Shown: positions 26,609-46,115 of the stretch, piece by piece
Position numbering within the stretch: the stretch's first letter is position 1
How the letters are laid out: each line of letters starts with the position of its first letter
NCBI RefSeq assembly: GCF_000828635.1
Contig: NZ_AP012547.1
Span: forward strand, 2,232,001-2,296,000
DNA length: 64,000 nucleotides
Reading direction: 5' to 3'
DNA from: Sulfuritalea hydrogenivorans sk43H
GTDB taxonomy: Bacteria; Pseudomonadota; Gammaproteobacteria; Burkholderiales; Rhodocyclaceae
Notes under the pieces: generated by a model
Told to the model about the DNA's origin: nothing
The model's database searches: none
Seen by the model: only the letters and a program-made list of their open reading frames with translations
Made by a program: the position numbers and the translations under genes

Positions 26609-26675
26609 AAAACGACGTTTCAGTGCAGGCTAATGCCTGCGAATGCAGGCGTTACGCCGAAACTAAAGTCGTTTT
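26609..26675 (-). repeat. Repeat R2, copy A
   Basis: Outer arms AAAACGAC/GTCGTTTT (26609-26616, 26668-26675), inner arms GCCTGC/GCAGGC, and the family words AGTTTCGGC and TTAGCCTGCACTGAAAC when read on the minus strand. The right arm overlaps the last codons of the glutaredoxin gene. Confidence 0.75.
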
Positions 26676-39967: not shown

Positions 39968-40686
39968 GGGTTGCCGTGACCGGCACGCTCTGGCTGCTGC
40001 CCGTCGCCCTCGGCGATATCCCCTGGCAAGATTACCTGCCGGCGGCCACCCGCGAAGCCGCCTGCCGGCTGAGGCATTTCGTCGCCGAGAACGCCAAGAC
40101 GGCGCGCGCCGAACTCAAGCGCATCGGCCATCCCCTGCCCCTGCGCGAACTCGCCATCGATCAATTGCCGGAAACCCCGGCCCCGGCTGACATCGAACGC
40201 CTGCTGGCGCCGCTGCTTGCCGGCCACGACCTGGGCCTGATGTCCGAAGCCGGCTGTCCGGCGGTGGCCGATCCCGGCGCCTTGCTGGTGCGCCGCGCCC
40301 ATGAACTGGGCATCGCGGTCAAACCGATGGTGGGCCCTTCCTCGCTGCTGCTGGCGCTGATGGCCTCCGGACTCGACGGCCAGCGCTTCGCCTTTCACGG
40401 CTACCTGCCGGCCCGCGACCCCGAGCGCAGCCGCCGCCTCGCGGAACTTGAAAGCGAATCCGCCCGCCTCAAGCAAACACAACTGTTCATCGAAACCCCG
40501 TACCGCAACCACACCTTGTTCAACGCACTGCTGCTGGCCTGCCGGCCGAAAACGCGGCTCTGCCTGGCAACCGACCTGAGCTTGCCCAGCGAACGGATCG
40601 CCACGCGCCGCATCGCGGACTGGAAGACGACCCCGGCGCCGGATCTGGACAAGCGCCCCACCGTTTTCCTGTTGCTGGCCGACTGA
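39964..40686 (+). CDS. SAM-dependent tetrapyrrole/RsmI-type methyltransferase
   Basis: 240 residues from the ATG overlapping the maf-like stop. [44 protein letters not shown] and [14 protein letters not shown] match the RsmI family that methylates C1402 of 16S rRNA. This copy is shorter than RsmI proper and is of the stand-alone type often beside maf in betaproteobacteria. The substrate is not certain. Confidence 0.82.
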
Positions 40687-40687
40687 G

Positions 40688-41668
40688 ATGCCATCCCGGA
40701 TCAGGCTTCACCAGATCCTTGACTGGGATTCCCCACAGCAAAACACCAGCCTGCGCCGGGAACTGGCCGCCGGATTGCTGCAACAACAGGCGGCGATCGC
40801 ACCGAAGTTCTTCTACGACAAGCTCGGCTCGCGACTGTTCGAAGCGATCACCGAGTTGCCGGAGTACTACCCGACCCGCACCGAGGCCGCCATCTTCGAC
40901 AAGCATCTGGCGGACATCCGGAAGGCACTGGGCGAGGACTTCACGCTCATCGACCTCGGCTGCGGCAGTTGCGGCAAAGCCGGCCGGCTGTTTCATGCGG
41001 GACTCCTGCCCTCACGCTATGTCGCGGTCGATATATCGGTCGAATTCATGCGCGATTCGCTGCAGCAATTGAAGCGCGAGCTGCCGGCAATCGAAATGAC
41101 GGGCGTCGGACTCGACTTCACCGCGGAACTTCAACTGCCCGACGACATTCCACTGGAACGACGCACATTCTTCTATCCCGGCTCCAGCATCGGCAATTTC
41201 AGCCCGCCCGACGCCGAGCGTTTCCTGCGGGGGTTGGCCGATCGGATGGATGCGTCGGGTGGCCTGCTGATCGGTGTCGACCTGGTCAAGGACAAGGCAG
41301 TGCTGGACGCAGCCTATGACGATCCACTGGGCGTCACCGCGGCCTTCAACCGCAACCTGCTGCGGCATGTCAATGCCCGGCTCGGCGCCGACTTCGACAT
41401 CGGCGACTGGCGGCACGTGGCTTTTTACAACATCGCAAATGCCCGCATCGAGATGTATCTGGAAGCCCGTCGCGCGCTCACCGTGAGCTGGCCGGAGGCT
41501 GCCATCCGGCACTTTGCCGCCGGCGAGCGGATTCACACCGAGAATTCGTACAAATATTCGCCCGAAGGCTTCACGGCCCTGCTGGACTCCGCGGGATTCG
41601 GCGACATCCAGCCATGGACCGATCCGCACAACTGGTTTGCGCTGTTCTTCGCCCGGCCGGTGAAATAA
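40688..41668 (+). CDS. egtD: L-histidine N-alpha-methyltransferase EgtD
   Basis: 326 residues, normal EgtD size. FYDKLGSRLFEAITELPEYY, YPTRTEAAIF, the SAM site LIDLGCGSCGKAGRLF and FFYPGSSIGNF are family marks. It trimethylates histidine to hercynine using three SAM. It starts 1 base after the methyltransferase gene and ends 4 bases before the convergent selenophosphate synthetase. Together with senA, senB and senC next door it supplies hercynine for selenoneine. Confidence 0.94.
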   Translation: MPSRIRLHQILDWDSPQQNTSLRRELAAGLLQQQAAIAPKFFYDKLGSRLFEAITELPEYYPTRTEAAIFDKHLADIRKALGEDFTLIDLGCGSCGKAGRLFHAGLLPSRYVAVDISVEFMRDSLQQLKRELPAIEMTGVGLDFTAELQLPDDIPLERRTFFYPGSSIGNFSPPDAERFLRGLADRMDASGGLLIGVDLVKDKAVLDAAYDDPLGVTAAFNRNLLRHVNARLGADFDIGDWRHVAFYNIANARIEMYLEARRALTVSWPEAAIRHFAAGERIHTENSYKYSPEGFTALLDSAGFGDIQPWTDPHNWFALFFARPVK

Positions 41669-41672
41669 CCGC

Positions 41673-42737
41673 TCAGGTAGTCACTCTGACCCGCGCCGGC
41701 CCGGACTCCAGACGCCCGATCACGGTAGCTGCCGCGAAGTCCTCCGCACGAAATACCTCCAGCACGGCATCCACTGCCGCCGGCTCGCATGCCACCAGCA
41801 GGCCGCCGCTGGTTTGCGGATCGGTCAACAGGGCGCGCTGCATCGGCGTGATGGCGGCGTCCAGCGCCACATCCTCGCCGTAAGCCATCCAGTTCCGCGC
41901 CGAGGCGCCGGTGATGTAGCCCGCCGTGGCCAGGTGCTCCACTTCGGCCAGCATGGGAATCCTGAGCATATCGAGTATCGCCGACAGCTTCGCTCCGCGG
42001 CATACCTCCAGCAAATGGCCCAGCAAACCAAAACCGGTCACATCGGTCAGGGCATGTACGCCATCCAGATTCGCCAGATGCCGGCCTGGAGTGTTGAGTT
42101 TGGTGGTGCTGGCAATCATGGCCTGGTAGCCGGCGGCATCCAGTGCGCCTTTTTTCAATGCCGCCGACAGCACGCCGACGCCCAGCGGCTTGCCGAGGAT
42201 CAGCACGTCGCCCGGCCGCGCGCCGGCATTGGTTTTCACCTTGTCGGGATGCACCAGGCCCATCACCACCAGGCCGTAGATCGGTTCGACGGAATCGATG
42301 GTGTGGCCGCCGGCAATCGGGATGCCGGCCGCGGCGCAGACGCTTTCGCCGCCTTCGAGGATCTTGCCGATCACGTCCAGCGGCAGCTTGTCGATCGGCA
42401 TGCCGACCAGCGCCAACGCCATGATCGGCGTGCCGCCCATGGCATACACGTCGCTGATCGCATTGGTGGCGGCGATGCGGCCGAAGTCGTAGGGATCATC
42501 GACGATGGGCATGAAGAAATCCGTCGTGGCGATCAGGGCCTGCTCGTCGTTGAGGCGATACACCGCTGCGTCGTCGGCGGTTTCGATACCGACGATCAGC
42601 TCCTTCGGCACCGGGAAATTGCGCACGCCGCGCAGGATTTCGGTCAGCAGGCCGGGGGCGACCTTGCAGCCGCAGCCGCCGCCATGACTGAAGCTGGTCA
42701 AGCGGATCGGAGAGTTGGAAAGCTGGGGGGAATTCAT
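41673..42737 (-). CDS. senC: Selenide, water dikinase (SelD/SenC type)
   Basis: 354 residues. The catalytic motif GGGCGCKV has the essential cysteine and lysine (cysteine form, no selenocysteine codon). Downstream ATTDFFMPIVDDPYDFG and GGHTIDSVEPIYG bind ATP and metal. It makes selenophosphate from selenide and ATP. Its start overlaps the senB stop (ATGA), which couples it to selenosugar synthesis. It may also serve selenocysteine or 2-selenouridine synthesis; no selA or selB is in the window. Confidence 0.9.
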   Translation of the reverse strand: MNSPQLSNSPIRLTSFSHGGGCGCKVAPGLLTEILRGVRNFPVPKELIVGIETADDAAVYRLNDEQALIATTDFFMPIVDDPYDFGRIAATNAISDVYAMGGTPIMALALVGMPIDKLPLDVIGKILEGGESVCAAAGIPIAGGHTIDSVEPIYGLVVMGLVHPDKVKTNAGARPGDVLILGKPLGVGVLSAALKKGALDAAGYQAMIASTTKLNTPGRHLANLDGVHALTDVTGFGLLGHLLEVCRGAKLSAILDMLRIPMLAEVEHLATAGYITGASARNWMAYGEDVALDAAITPMQRALLTDPQTSGGLLVACEPAAVDAVLEVFRAEDFAAATVIGRLESGPARVRVTT

Positions 42738-43765
42738 TTTTTTGACTGCCTTGTGATTGAGTTACGGCCACTGCGCTTGACGTCGATAAGGCCGACGTCA
42801 GCCTCCACTGAAACTTCGTTTTCAAGAAGACTGCAAACAGCGGCGCATTCATGCGCCGGGGTGAACAAGGATACCCGGTCGGCGCAGCGTCGGGACAAGT
42901 TGGCGTAGTAGCGCGGATCGCGGGCCGCCTTTTGAATCAGTTCCGCCAGGCGTGCCGCATCGCCGACCGGAAACCAGCCGGGATAGTCCGCGCCGAGCAT
43001 GCCCCGGTTGCCGGGAATGTCGCTGCCCAGCACCGGCACGCCGCTGGTCACCGCTTCGATCAATACGTTGGCGCCGCCCTCCATCAGGGAAGGCAGCAGC
43101 AACAGGTGGCAGCGCTTGATCAGCTGGCGCGTGGCCGCCTGCGGCAAGGAACCCTGCGGGTGATAGCGCGCATCGCCGGCCCCCAGGCGGCGAACTTCGG
43201 CCGCCAGTTGCGGATCCAGGTCGCCGCCAATGTGGAACAGTCGTACCGGCAGTTCGGCAGGCAGGCTGCGCAAGGCGCGCAAGACAGTCAGCGGATCCTT
43301 CTCGGGCCGCAGGTGACCCACCAGTGCCAGATCGAAATGACGGCGACTGCGGCGCCCCGGCCGCAACAGGCGGGCCGACTGGTAGATGGTCATCGCCTTC
43401 GCCGCATGTTCGGGCGGTAGCGCCTGGAGGCCCTCGTCCTGCAAGACCACGAGACGACTCGCCAGCGCCAGCGAGCGCCGGGCATCCCGATCGACGGCGA
43501 TGTCGCGATAGAGGTCGGTGCCGGTCAGGACCACAATCAGCGGACGCTCCGGATAGCGCTCGGCGAAGGCGGCAATCGATGCCGCCGAGCGGCGGGCATG
43601 GAGGGCGATCAGAAAGTCGGCGCTGGCGCCACGCCACTTCATGTCGATGCTGACCCGCGCATGGGGCGCCAGGCAGCGCGCCCAGCGTTTTGCCGTGTGC
43701 CAGTTGCCGTTGTTGGCACTGGCCAGCGCGGGGCTGATAATGGCGACGGAGGGAGATGGCCTCAT
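42734..43765 (-). CDS. senB: Selenosugar synthase SenB (GT4-like glycosyltransferase)
   Basis: 343 residues. The N-terminal ALASANNGNWHTAKRWARCL is characteristic of the SenB group; LALVGHLRPEKDPLTVLRAL and LLLPSLMEGGANVLIEAV are GT4 nucleotide-sugar-binding regions. In the described pathway SenB joins selenophosphate to a UDP-sugar to give a selenosugar. Residues about 315-336 are encoded by repeat R2 and are unlikely to be ancestral. The ATG shares the bases CATG with the divergent senA start, and no clear ribosome site is seen before it. Confidence 0.86.
   Translation of the reverse strand: MRPSPSVAIISPALASANNGNWHTAKRWARCLAPHARVSIDMKWRGASADFLIALHARRSAASIAAFAERYPERPLIVVLTGTDLYRDIAVDRDARRSLALASRLVVLQDEGLQALPPEHAAKAMTIYQSARLLRPGRRSRRHFDLALVGHLRPEKDPLTVLRALRSLPAELPVRLFHIGGDLDPQLAAEVRRLGAGDARYHPQGSLPQAATRQLIKRCHLLLLPSLMEGGANVLIEAVTSGVPVLGSDIPGNRGMLGADYPGWFPVGDAARLAELIQKAARDPRYYANLSRRCADRVSLFTPAHECAAVCSLLENEVSVEADVGLIDVKRSGRNSITRQSKK
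42759..42823 (+). repeat. Repeat R2, copy C (inside the senB 3' end)
   Basis: GTTACGGCC, then TGACGTC (42778-42784), loop GATAAGGCC and GACGTCA (42794-42800), followed by AGCCTCCACTGAAACT. The stem keeps perfect pairing although two positions differ from copy D. The copy lies within the coding end of senB. Confidence 0.8.
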
Positions 43766-44960
43766 GGAGTTGAACGAAATGAGAAGCGCTGGAAAACAGC
43801 CTTTGGCCGATGCGATGCGGGATGCCCGCGATTATACGGTCAGGCTGCTTGACGACTGGGCGGCATGGCCGGACAGCGCCTGCGTCGAGGGCCTGCAATC
43901 GCCCGACCCGCTGCATCCGCCCTGCCTCGCCATCATCAACCCGCCCCTGTGGGAACTTGGCCATGTCGCCTGGTTCATGGAGTACTGGTGCCAGCGTTAT
44001 CAAGGGTCGGCGACACCGCCCCGGCCCTCCCGCCTGAAAGACGCCGACCGCTGGTACGACTCGCGCCACGTGCCGCATGACAGCCGCTGGTGGCTCGACC
44101 TGCCCGGCTGGGATGCCACGCGACGCTACCTTGCGGAGACCCTGGATGGCGCACTTGAGGCCCTGCGCAGCCTGCCCGACACCGACGCCGGCCTCTACTT
44201 TCACCGGCTTGCGCTGTTCCACGAGGACATGCATTACGAGGCCTTCCGCTACACGCAGCAGACCCTGTCCTGGCCGGCCGCGGACGGCTTGTCGGCGCTG
44301 CCGCCGGCGACCGATATCGAACTGGCCGGCGGCGAATTCATGATGGGCAGCTCACCGGATGGCTTCGTCTTCGACAATGAAAAATGGGCGCATCCGCGAC
44401 GCGTCGAAGCCTTTGCGATTGGCGCCGCGCCGGTCCGCAATTCGGACTACCTGGCTTTCGTCGAGGCAGGCGGCTACCGGCAGCCGCAATGGTGGTCGGC
44501 AAGCGGTCAGGCCTGGCTCGCCGCCAGCGGACAAACCATGCCGCGCTACTGGCGGCGCAAGGATGGGCGCTGGCGGCAACGACGCTTCGCGCAGTGGATC
44601 GATCTGGCGCCCGAACAGCCGGCGATACACCTGACGGCACACGAAGCCGAGGCCTGGTGCCGCTGGGCCGGCCGCCGGCTGCCAAGCGAAGCGGAATGGG
44701 AATATGCCGCAACCCATGCCGCCCGTTTCGACTGGGGAACGCAGGTCTGGGAATGGACGGCGAGCCAGTTCGAGCCCTATCCCGGCTTCAGTCCCGACCC
44801 CTATGCCGAATACGCCGAGCCCTTCTTCCACACCCACCGCAGCGTGCGCGGCGGCTCCTTCGCCACGCGCAGCCGCATGCGCCACCCGCGCTACCGCAAC
44901 TACTACGAGCCGCAGCGCGACGATATCTTCGTCGGCTTTCGCAGTTGCCGCGCCGGATAG
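43764..44960 (+). CDS. senA: Selenoneine synthase SenA (EgtB-like iron enzyme)
   Basis: 398 residues from the ATG with GGAGGGAG eight bases upstream; a second ATG at 43779 is possible. An N-terminal DinB-like domain gives a first iron histidine in WELGHVAWFMEYW and the motif HEDMHYE for the other two. A C-terminal formylglycine-generating-enzyme-like domain follows (GGEFMMGSSPDGFVFDNE to GGSFATRSRMRHPRYRNYY). EgtB makes a C-S bond between hercynine and a thiol; SenA makes the C-Se bond with a selenosugar. Assignment to SenA rather than EgtB rests on the senB-senC neighbours and on absence of egtA, egtC and egtE here. Confidence 0.85.
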   Translation: MELNEMRSAGKQPLADAMRDARDYTVRLLDDWAAWPDSACVEGLQSPDPLHPPCLAIINPPLWELGHVAWFMEYWCQRYQGSATPPRPSRLKDADRWYDSRHVPHDSRWWLDLPGWDATRRYLAETLDGALEALRSLPDTDAGLYFHRLALFHEDMHYEAFRYTQQTLSWPAADGLSALPPATDIELAGGEFMMGSSPDGFVFDNEKWAHPRRVEAFAIGAAPVRNSDYLAFVEAGGYRQPQWWSASGQAWLAASGQTMPRYWRRKDGRWRQRRFAQWIDLAPEQPAIHLTAHEAEAWCRWAGRRLPSEAEWEYAATHAARFDWGTQVWEWTASQFEPYPGFSPDPYAEYAEPFFHTHRSVRGGSFATRSRMRHPRYRNYYEPQRDDIFVGFRSCRAG

Positions 44961-46031: not shown

Positions 46032-46115
46032 CCCCTTTTAGTTACGGCCGCTTCGCTTAACGCCGATAAGTCCGGCGTTAGCCTGCACTGAAACTGCGGT
46101 TTCCTGGAAAAGGGG
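46032..46115 (+). repeat. Repeat R2, copy D (fullest copy)
   Basis: Outer arms CCCCTTTT (46032-46039) and AAAAGGGG (46108-46115), inner stem TAACGCC (46058-46064) and GGCGTTA (46074-46080) around GATAAGTCC, then GCCTGCACTGAAACTGC. It is intergenic between the DMT transporter end and azlC start. Confidence 0.85.

Follow-up and report, generated by a model that had tools for sequence, protein, structure and literature searches.

We identified a locus in the genome of Sulfuritalea hydrogenivorans sk43H that, judging from its sequence, is very probably a selenoneine biosynthesis cluster. The analyzed stretch (hereafter the window) is 64,000 nucleotides long and covers positions 2232001–2296000 of a 3.80 Mb genome that is assembled as one contig and was rated 100% complete, and the sen locus occupies window positions 40688–44960. 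Its four genes are egtD (40688–41668, + strand), predicted to encode an L-histidine N-alpha-methyltransferase forming hercynine; senC/selD (41673–42737, − strand), for a predicted selenide water dikinase of the Cys form supplying selenophosphate; senB (42734–43765, − strand), for a predicted selenosugar synthase of the GT-B glycosyltransferase type; and senA (43764–44960, + strand), for a predicted EgtB-like, non-haem iron selenoneine synthase. egtD and senC are convergent with 4 bases separating their stop codons, senB and senC have an ATGA at 42734–42737 in common, and the start codons of senA and senB overlap in a single CATG (43763–43766). The original prediction, made from the sequence alone, had read this gene set as the selenoneine route, and family cut-offs, structure matches and a SenA tree all support that reading. 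The cluster coordinates, the 4-base egtD–senC spacing, the ATGA overlap, and the HEDMHYE (SenA residues 153–159) and NNGNWHTAKRW (SenB residues 18–28) motifs that it listed were all found in the sequence. Its description of senA as divergent from senB was right in orientation and is refined here by the shared CATG.

By sequence, the match of the four proteins to their families is far beyond chance, with lowest profile E-values of 5.5e-111 (EgtD), 5e-162 (SelD), 2.5e-121 (SenB), and 1.8e-157 (SenA). Against the NCBIfam cut-offs, EgtD scored 370.6 bits on TIGR03438 (cut-off 290.9) and also matched Methyltransf_33, SelD scored 436.5 bits on TIGR00476 (cut-off 125), SenB 404.5 bits on the selenosugar synthase model TIGR04348 (cut-off 300), and SenA 524.6 bits on the selenoneine synthase model NF041186 (cut-off 420). 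The closest solved structures to SenA were the selenoneine synthases 8ryz and 8k5i (E ~5e-97), followed by OvsA (E 4e-61) and then EgtB, while those closest to SenB were the SenB entries 8jjn, 8jjq, 8fbx, and 8k5u. A defence-family scan of the four proteins gave a single weak match, to EgtD (20.6 bits); SelD, SenB, and SenA had no match.

The selenoneine pathway has been described (PMC9814287; PMC10702425). By analogy with the characterized Variovorax enzymes, EgtD would methylate histidine to hercynine, SelD/SenC would convert selenide to selenophosphate, and SenB would place the selenium onto a uridine diphosphate (UDP)-sugar to give a selenosugar. The iron enzyme SenA would then join the selenosugar to hercynine, with elimination and reduction leading to selenoneine. 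This is known chemistry in an ordinary cluster of a known kind; what is new is modest detail on the tight gene packing, the probable shared use of SelD, and the residue variation in SenB. The sen cluster of Variovorax paradoxus DSM 30034 (senA-senB-senC) has the same three enzymes from the same families. In the window, by contrast, egtD is adjacent, start codons overlap, and SelD is the only one over cut-off in its genome, features that are stated here for the S. hydrogenivorans side of the comparison.

Comparisons drew on an order sample of 200 genomes, the S. hydrogenivorans genome included, and on 23 close relatives found with SenB as the query, so that the presence of senB in the latter is no evidence. 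The SenA tree had 90 rows, of which three were partial references, one was the window protein, and 86 came from fetched loci, and was built with a quick method, with branch support from the Shimodaira–Hasegawa-like approximate likelihood ratio test (SH-aLRT) only. Window SenA fell within a starred 22-row set in which the remaining 21 rows are all SenB-linked. A 39-row set (support 80, unstarred) holds both window SenA and Variovorax SenA with the OvsA reference outside it, and a 68-row SenA set had support of 91 (unstarred). Fourteen EgtB-like rows formed a starred set (100), joined by the EgtB reference at 80; the two of these rows that were scanned, L088 (546.8 bits) and L068 (556.9 bits), pass the EgtB cut-off and fail that of SenA. 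A firm grouping of SenA with EgtB, the outcome singled out beforehand as a check, was thus not seen, and SenA instead falls with the SenB-linked and Variovorax SenA (split support 80).

Several points weigh against the selenoneine assignment. The branch parting the 74-row SenA/OvsA portion of the tree from the rest, and with it the SenA–EgtB split, had an SH-aLRT of 80 and was unstarred, and the reference rows are partial. L081 exceeded the SenA cut-off (425.8 bits; seven proteins scanned) yet grouped with the OvsA reference in a starred set (100). L062 likewise exceeded it at 454.7 bits yet sits in a four-row set on the OvsA side; passing the SenA cut-off alone is therefore no proof of SenA. 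All four members of that set (L055, L059, L061, L062) are over the SenA cut-off, had no SenB found nearby, and join the OvsA reference and L081 at 82; this group may use another substrate. Two sugar-contact residues of Variovorax SenB are replaced in the window (Glu at the V157 position and Asn at the H235 position), which may point to a different sugar donor. SenA may also make some ergothioneine by acting on sulfur sugars.

Some of these points would fit a cluster for another selenometabolite, for example ovoselenol or a selenosugar end product, which we consider very improbable. The ovoselenol enzyme OvsA belongs to the same EgtB-like selenoxide synthase family, SenB serves the OvsA route too, and that route uses the selenosugar. 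OvsA structures are the next-best Protein Data Bank matches of SenA, the SenA cut-off lets in some OvsA-side proteins, and the two SenB substitutions may alter the sugar. The OvsA matches are nevertheless far behind those to selenoneine synthase (4e-61 vs 5e-97), the OvsA reference lies outside the set shared by window and Variovorax SenA, and the linked EgtD is predicted to make hercynine. Both substitutions are also widespread. We surveyed 57 SenB sequences from fetched loci (the 23 close relatives, of which L022 is without its first part, and 34 from the order sample), and Glu occupies position 157 in all 57, while position 235 holds Asn in 47, His in nine, and Leu in one. Two of the positions examined as sugar contacts in the Variovorax enzyme, V157 and H235, thus mostly differ in these 57 sequences.

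Elsewhere, window SenB is identical to the Variovorax enzyme at the equivalents of N20, T23, H58, D86, Q131, R155, K158, E231, and E239; roles for N20, T23, K158, E231, and E239 in Variovorax SenB are given in PMC10891094. That paper also covers V157 and a motif, EGGAHV, which is absent from window SenB (EGGANV). Because the paper drew the motif from enzymes >55% similar to Variovorax SenB, we take EGGAHV to mark a subgroup and not to define the family.

A second alternative to selenoneine synthesis holds that senA is a divergent egtB in an ergothioneine cluster, with selD and the glycosyltransferase gene there by chance. Ergothioneine clusters (egtB-egtD) do resemble the locus in combining EgtD with an EgtB-like iron enzyme. 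SenA scored 240.7 bits on the EgtB model, its H67, H153, and H157 align with positions that we take to be the iron ligands of EgtB-type enzymes, and the tree split has support of only 80. SenA is nevertheless below the EgtB cut-off of 360 and above its own, whereas the 16 over-cut-off EgtB scored 505.8–599.6 bits, and the EgtB-related signature TIGR04373 was passed by SenA (86.9 vs a cut-off of 71) and failed by two true EgtB of the order. The locus also departs from an ergothioneine cluster in containing selD and senB, in a genome with no over-cut-off EgtB. Chance association is at odds with the neighborhoods as well: among the 46 order-sample matches that exceed the SenA cut-off, 34 had senB nearby in the fetched stretch, and 22 of the 23 close relatives have senA and senB head-to-head, a contig end cutting the locus at that point in the remaining one (L022). 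On the cut-offs and the tree we reject an EgtB identity for SenA, and we give the ergothioneine-cluster explanation as a whole hardly any credence.

We profile-searched the S. hydrogenivorans genome for EgtD, SelD, EgtB, SelA, the selenocysteine tRNA (tRNA-Sec), and SelU. EgtD had a single match, and no EgtB was over cut-off, the top match being SenA itself, in a search that did not extend to other ergothioneine routes such as EanB. Because no EgtB is over cut-off, hercynine would be expected to go to selenoneine rather than ergothioneine, and the sole EgtD match fits the proposal that the linked egtD provides the precursor. Only the cluster SelD exceeded its cut-off, with three weaker matches at ≤38.9 bits, and the genome also had SelA (592 bits, cut-off 267.9), tRNA-Sec (71.4, cut-off 47), and SelU (359.2, cut-off 219.75). 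The same SelD therefore probably feeds selenocysteine and selenouridine as well as selenoneine. A SelD-type selenophosphate synthetase had been predicted and is present, and to call it a dedicated SenC would be an over-reading in a genome where it is the only SelD over cut-off. With one SelD inside a small-molecule cluster serving three uses of selenium, competition for selenophosphate becomes directly testable.

Selenoneine genes appear common in the order. The SenA cut-off was passed in 44 of the 200 order-sample genomes, counting S. hydrogenivorans; in two of them (G033 and G078) the sole match over cut-off is one of the OvsA-side proteins in the tree. egtD was near senA in 14 of these 44 genomes (S. 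hydrogenivorans and 13 of the 43 others), a count for which contig ends truncate some of the stretches. We searched 51 genomes for EgtD and SelD (the 43 from the order sample and eight behind the relatives' loci). EgtD matches occurred in 49, 48 of them over cut-off (none in G084 and G207), and SelD likewise in 49 (none in G002 and G033). Of 52 genomes, 16 had an EgtB over cut-off, and 15 of these belong to the 44; a partial EgtB match in G084 fell just under the cut-off at 358.2 bits. The remaining 29 of the 44 had no over-cut-off EgtB, in a search that covered EgtB alone among the ergothioneine routes and included many draft genomes. For many of these 29 genomes, the sole antioxidant derived from hercynine may be a selenium compound.

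Among named genomes, the nearest SenB relatives came mostly from Sulfuritalea and other Rhodocyclales assemblies. Fifteen of the 23 close relatives have a convergent egtD after senC, 14 of them with all four genes in view, and another five (L006, L007, L009, L018, L021) carry egtD at a different genomic site. Contig ends prevent L005, L017, and L024 from showing egtD and L022 from showing senA; L005 and L022 belong to the same assembly. The genome behind L018 has its egtD beside an EgtB over cut-off. In that behind L021, an EgtB match with two internal stops (G204:C36:11628-13365) adjoins a stop-free egtD match, which may mean that ergothioneine synthesis has been lost or that the assembly is faulty. 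The SelD matches of 12 of the 51 genomes contain one in-frame TGA (G131, G005, G090, G169, G046, G055, G181, G012, G104, G140, G060, G100), which probably encodes selenocysteine in SelD itself; window SelD has Cys.

The head-to-head arrangement of senA and senB places putative regulatory elements of each gene inside the other. The senB ATG is at the same CATG place in eight of the 22 head-to-head relatives; for the remaining 14, the closest in-frame start codon of senB is farther upstream, within senA, giving a larger gene overlap. A putative sigma-70-type senA promoter, TTGGCA-17-GATAAT (43713–43741, + strand), runs antisense within senB codons 9–18. Its pattern was seen once in 501 bases against 0.1 expected from shuffles, and twice over 6 kb against 0.9. 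Of the 22 relatives, 19 keep GATAAT at this position (the exceptions are L016, L019, and L020) and 17 keep TTGGCA. The SenB protein is itself conserved here, so it is the codon choice that supports constraint on the DNA. We compared synonymous conservation across related sequences, for which reason the ranks given are not probabilities. senB codons 6–17 were at the top of 301 windows (excess 0.43 at codon 6), with the senB 3′ end close behind (windows at codons 288–295, excess up to 0.38), a caveat on the promoter signal. Within this stretch, Ile9 is ATT in 21/23 sequences (25% usage, rank 23 among 970 conserved positions) and Ser16 is AGT in 17/19 (10% usage, rank 7/970). A putative senA ribosome-binding site, GGAGGGAG (43748–43755, + strand), lies within senB codons 4–6, where Ser6 is TCC in 22/23 (rank 5/970). 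From these patterns, a senA promoter inside the senB coding sequence is likely.

For senBC we found a putative −10 element, TATAAT (43831–43836, − strand), at −71 from the senB start and antisense in senA codons 23–25. It is exactly at −71 of the aligned senB start in 20 of the 22 relatives and absent in L018 and L021. The top senA windows for synonymous conservation span codons 17–33, with an excess of 0.36 at codon 22 vs 0.34 at codons 89–90 and 370. The best −35 candidate for senB had only 1–3 of six matches across the window and the 22 relatives, and the evidence for the senB promoter is therefore weaker than that for the senA promoter; we regard a senBC promoter inside the senA coding sequence as putative. 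It is possible, though we hold the idea tentatively and think it somewhat unlikely, that the Sulfuritalea-type sen locus is a head-to-head overlapping pair with promoters inside each other's coding sequence. The 5′-overlapping senA and senBC transcripts could then interfere, forming a switch that sets selenium flow to selenocysteine, selenouridine, and selenoneine; its reach to the first two would follow from senC being the only selD over cut-off.

Apart from the promoter elements, senA codon 7 (43782–43784) had the highest synonymous rank (1/970), with the rare AGA (2% usage) encoding Arg7 in 19/23 sequences, and we found no explanation for it. This codon pointed to a possible palindromic operator in the senB leader, which we rejected because a 5/6-pair palindrome at that position occurred in only two of the 22 relatives (L002 and L004) and not in the window.

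At the other end of senB, the ATGA overlap with senC traces to a repeat. A dispersed repeat of ~63 bp (42761–42823, − strand) near the senB 3′ end is an insertion relative to other loci; L002, L005, and L022 also have it complete, L023 has part of it, and relatives that lack it have a senB that stops before senC. A 24-base probe (≤3 mismatches) located the repeat at 16 genomic places, against 0 for the reversed control. Three copies, with a hairpin-like core, are in the window (26609–26631, ~42761–42823, and 46080–46102). The profile match of SenB ends at residue 315, with 28 more residues beyond it, and the insert accounts for 21 codons. The TAA that follows the insert in L002, L005, and L022 is missing from the window, so that senB reads through into the ATGA overlap. 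On this alignment, one repeat copy is absorbed in frame into the senB 3′ end. The senB–senC overlap that the original prediction reported is thus present, but it came with the repeat insertion and is lineage-specific rather than ancestral.

Close to the insert, senB codons 297–314 (42824–42877) include several of the highest single synonymous ranks, again with no explanation found. We considered and rejected the idea that a conserved RNA structure, spanning the end of senB and the start of senC, hides the senC ribosome-binding site: the consensus fold of 19 sequences was weak (−5.5 kcal/mol, 2 of 13 pairs with changes on both sides) and did not contain the stem in question.

The genes flanking the locus are a Maf gene and a TP_methylase-family gene (stop at 40686) upstream of egtD and, beyond senA, AzlD and AzlC genes that converge on senA, together with a gene for an EamA transporter.

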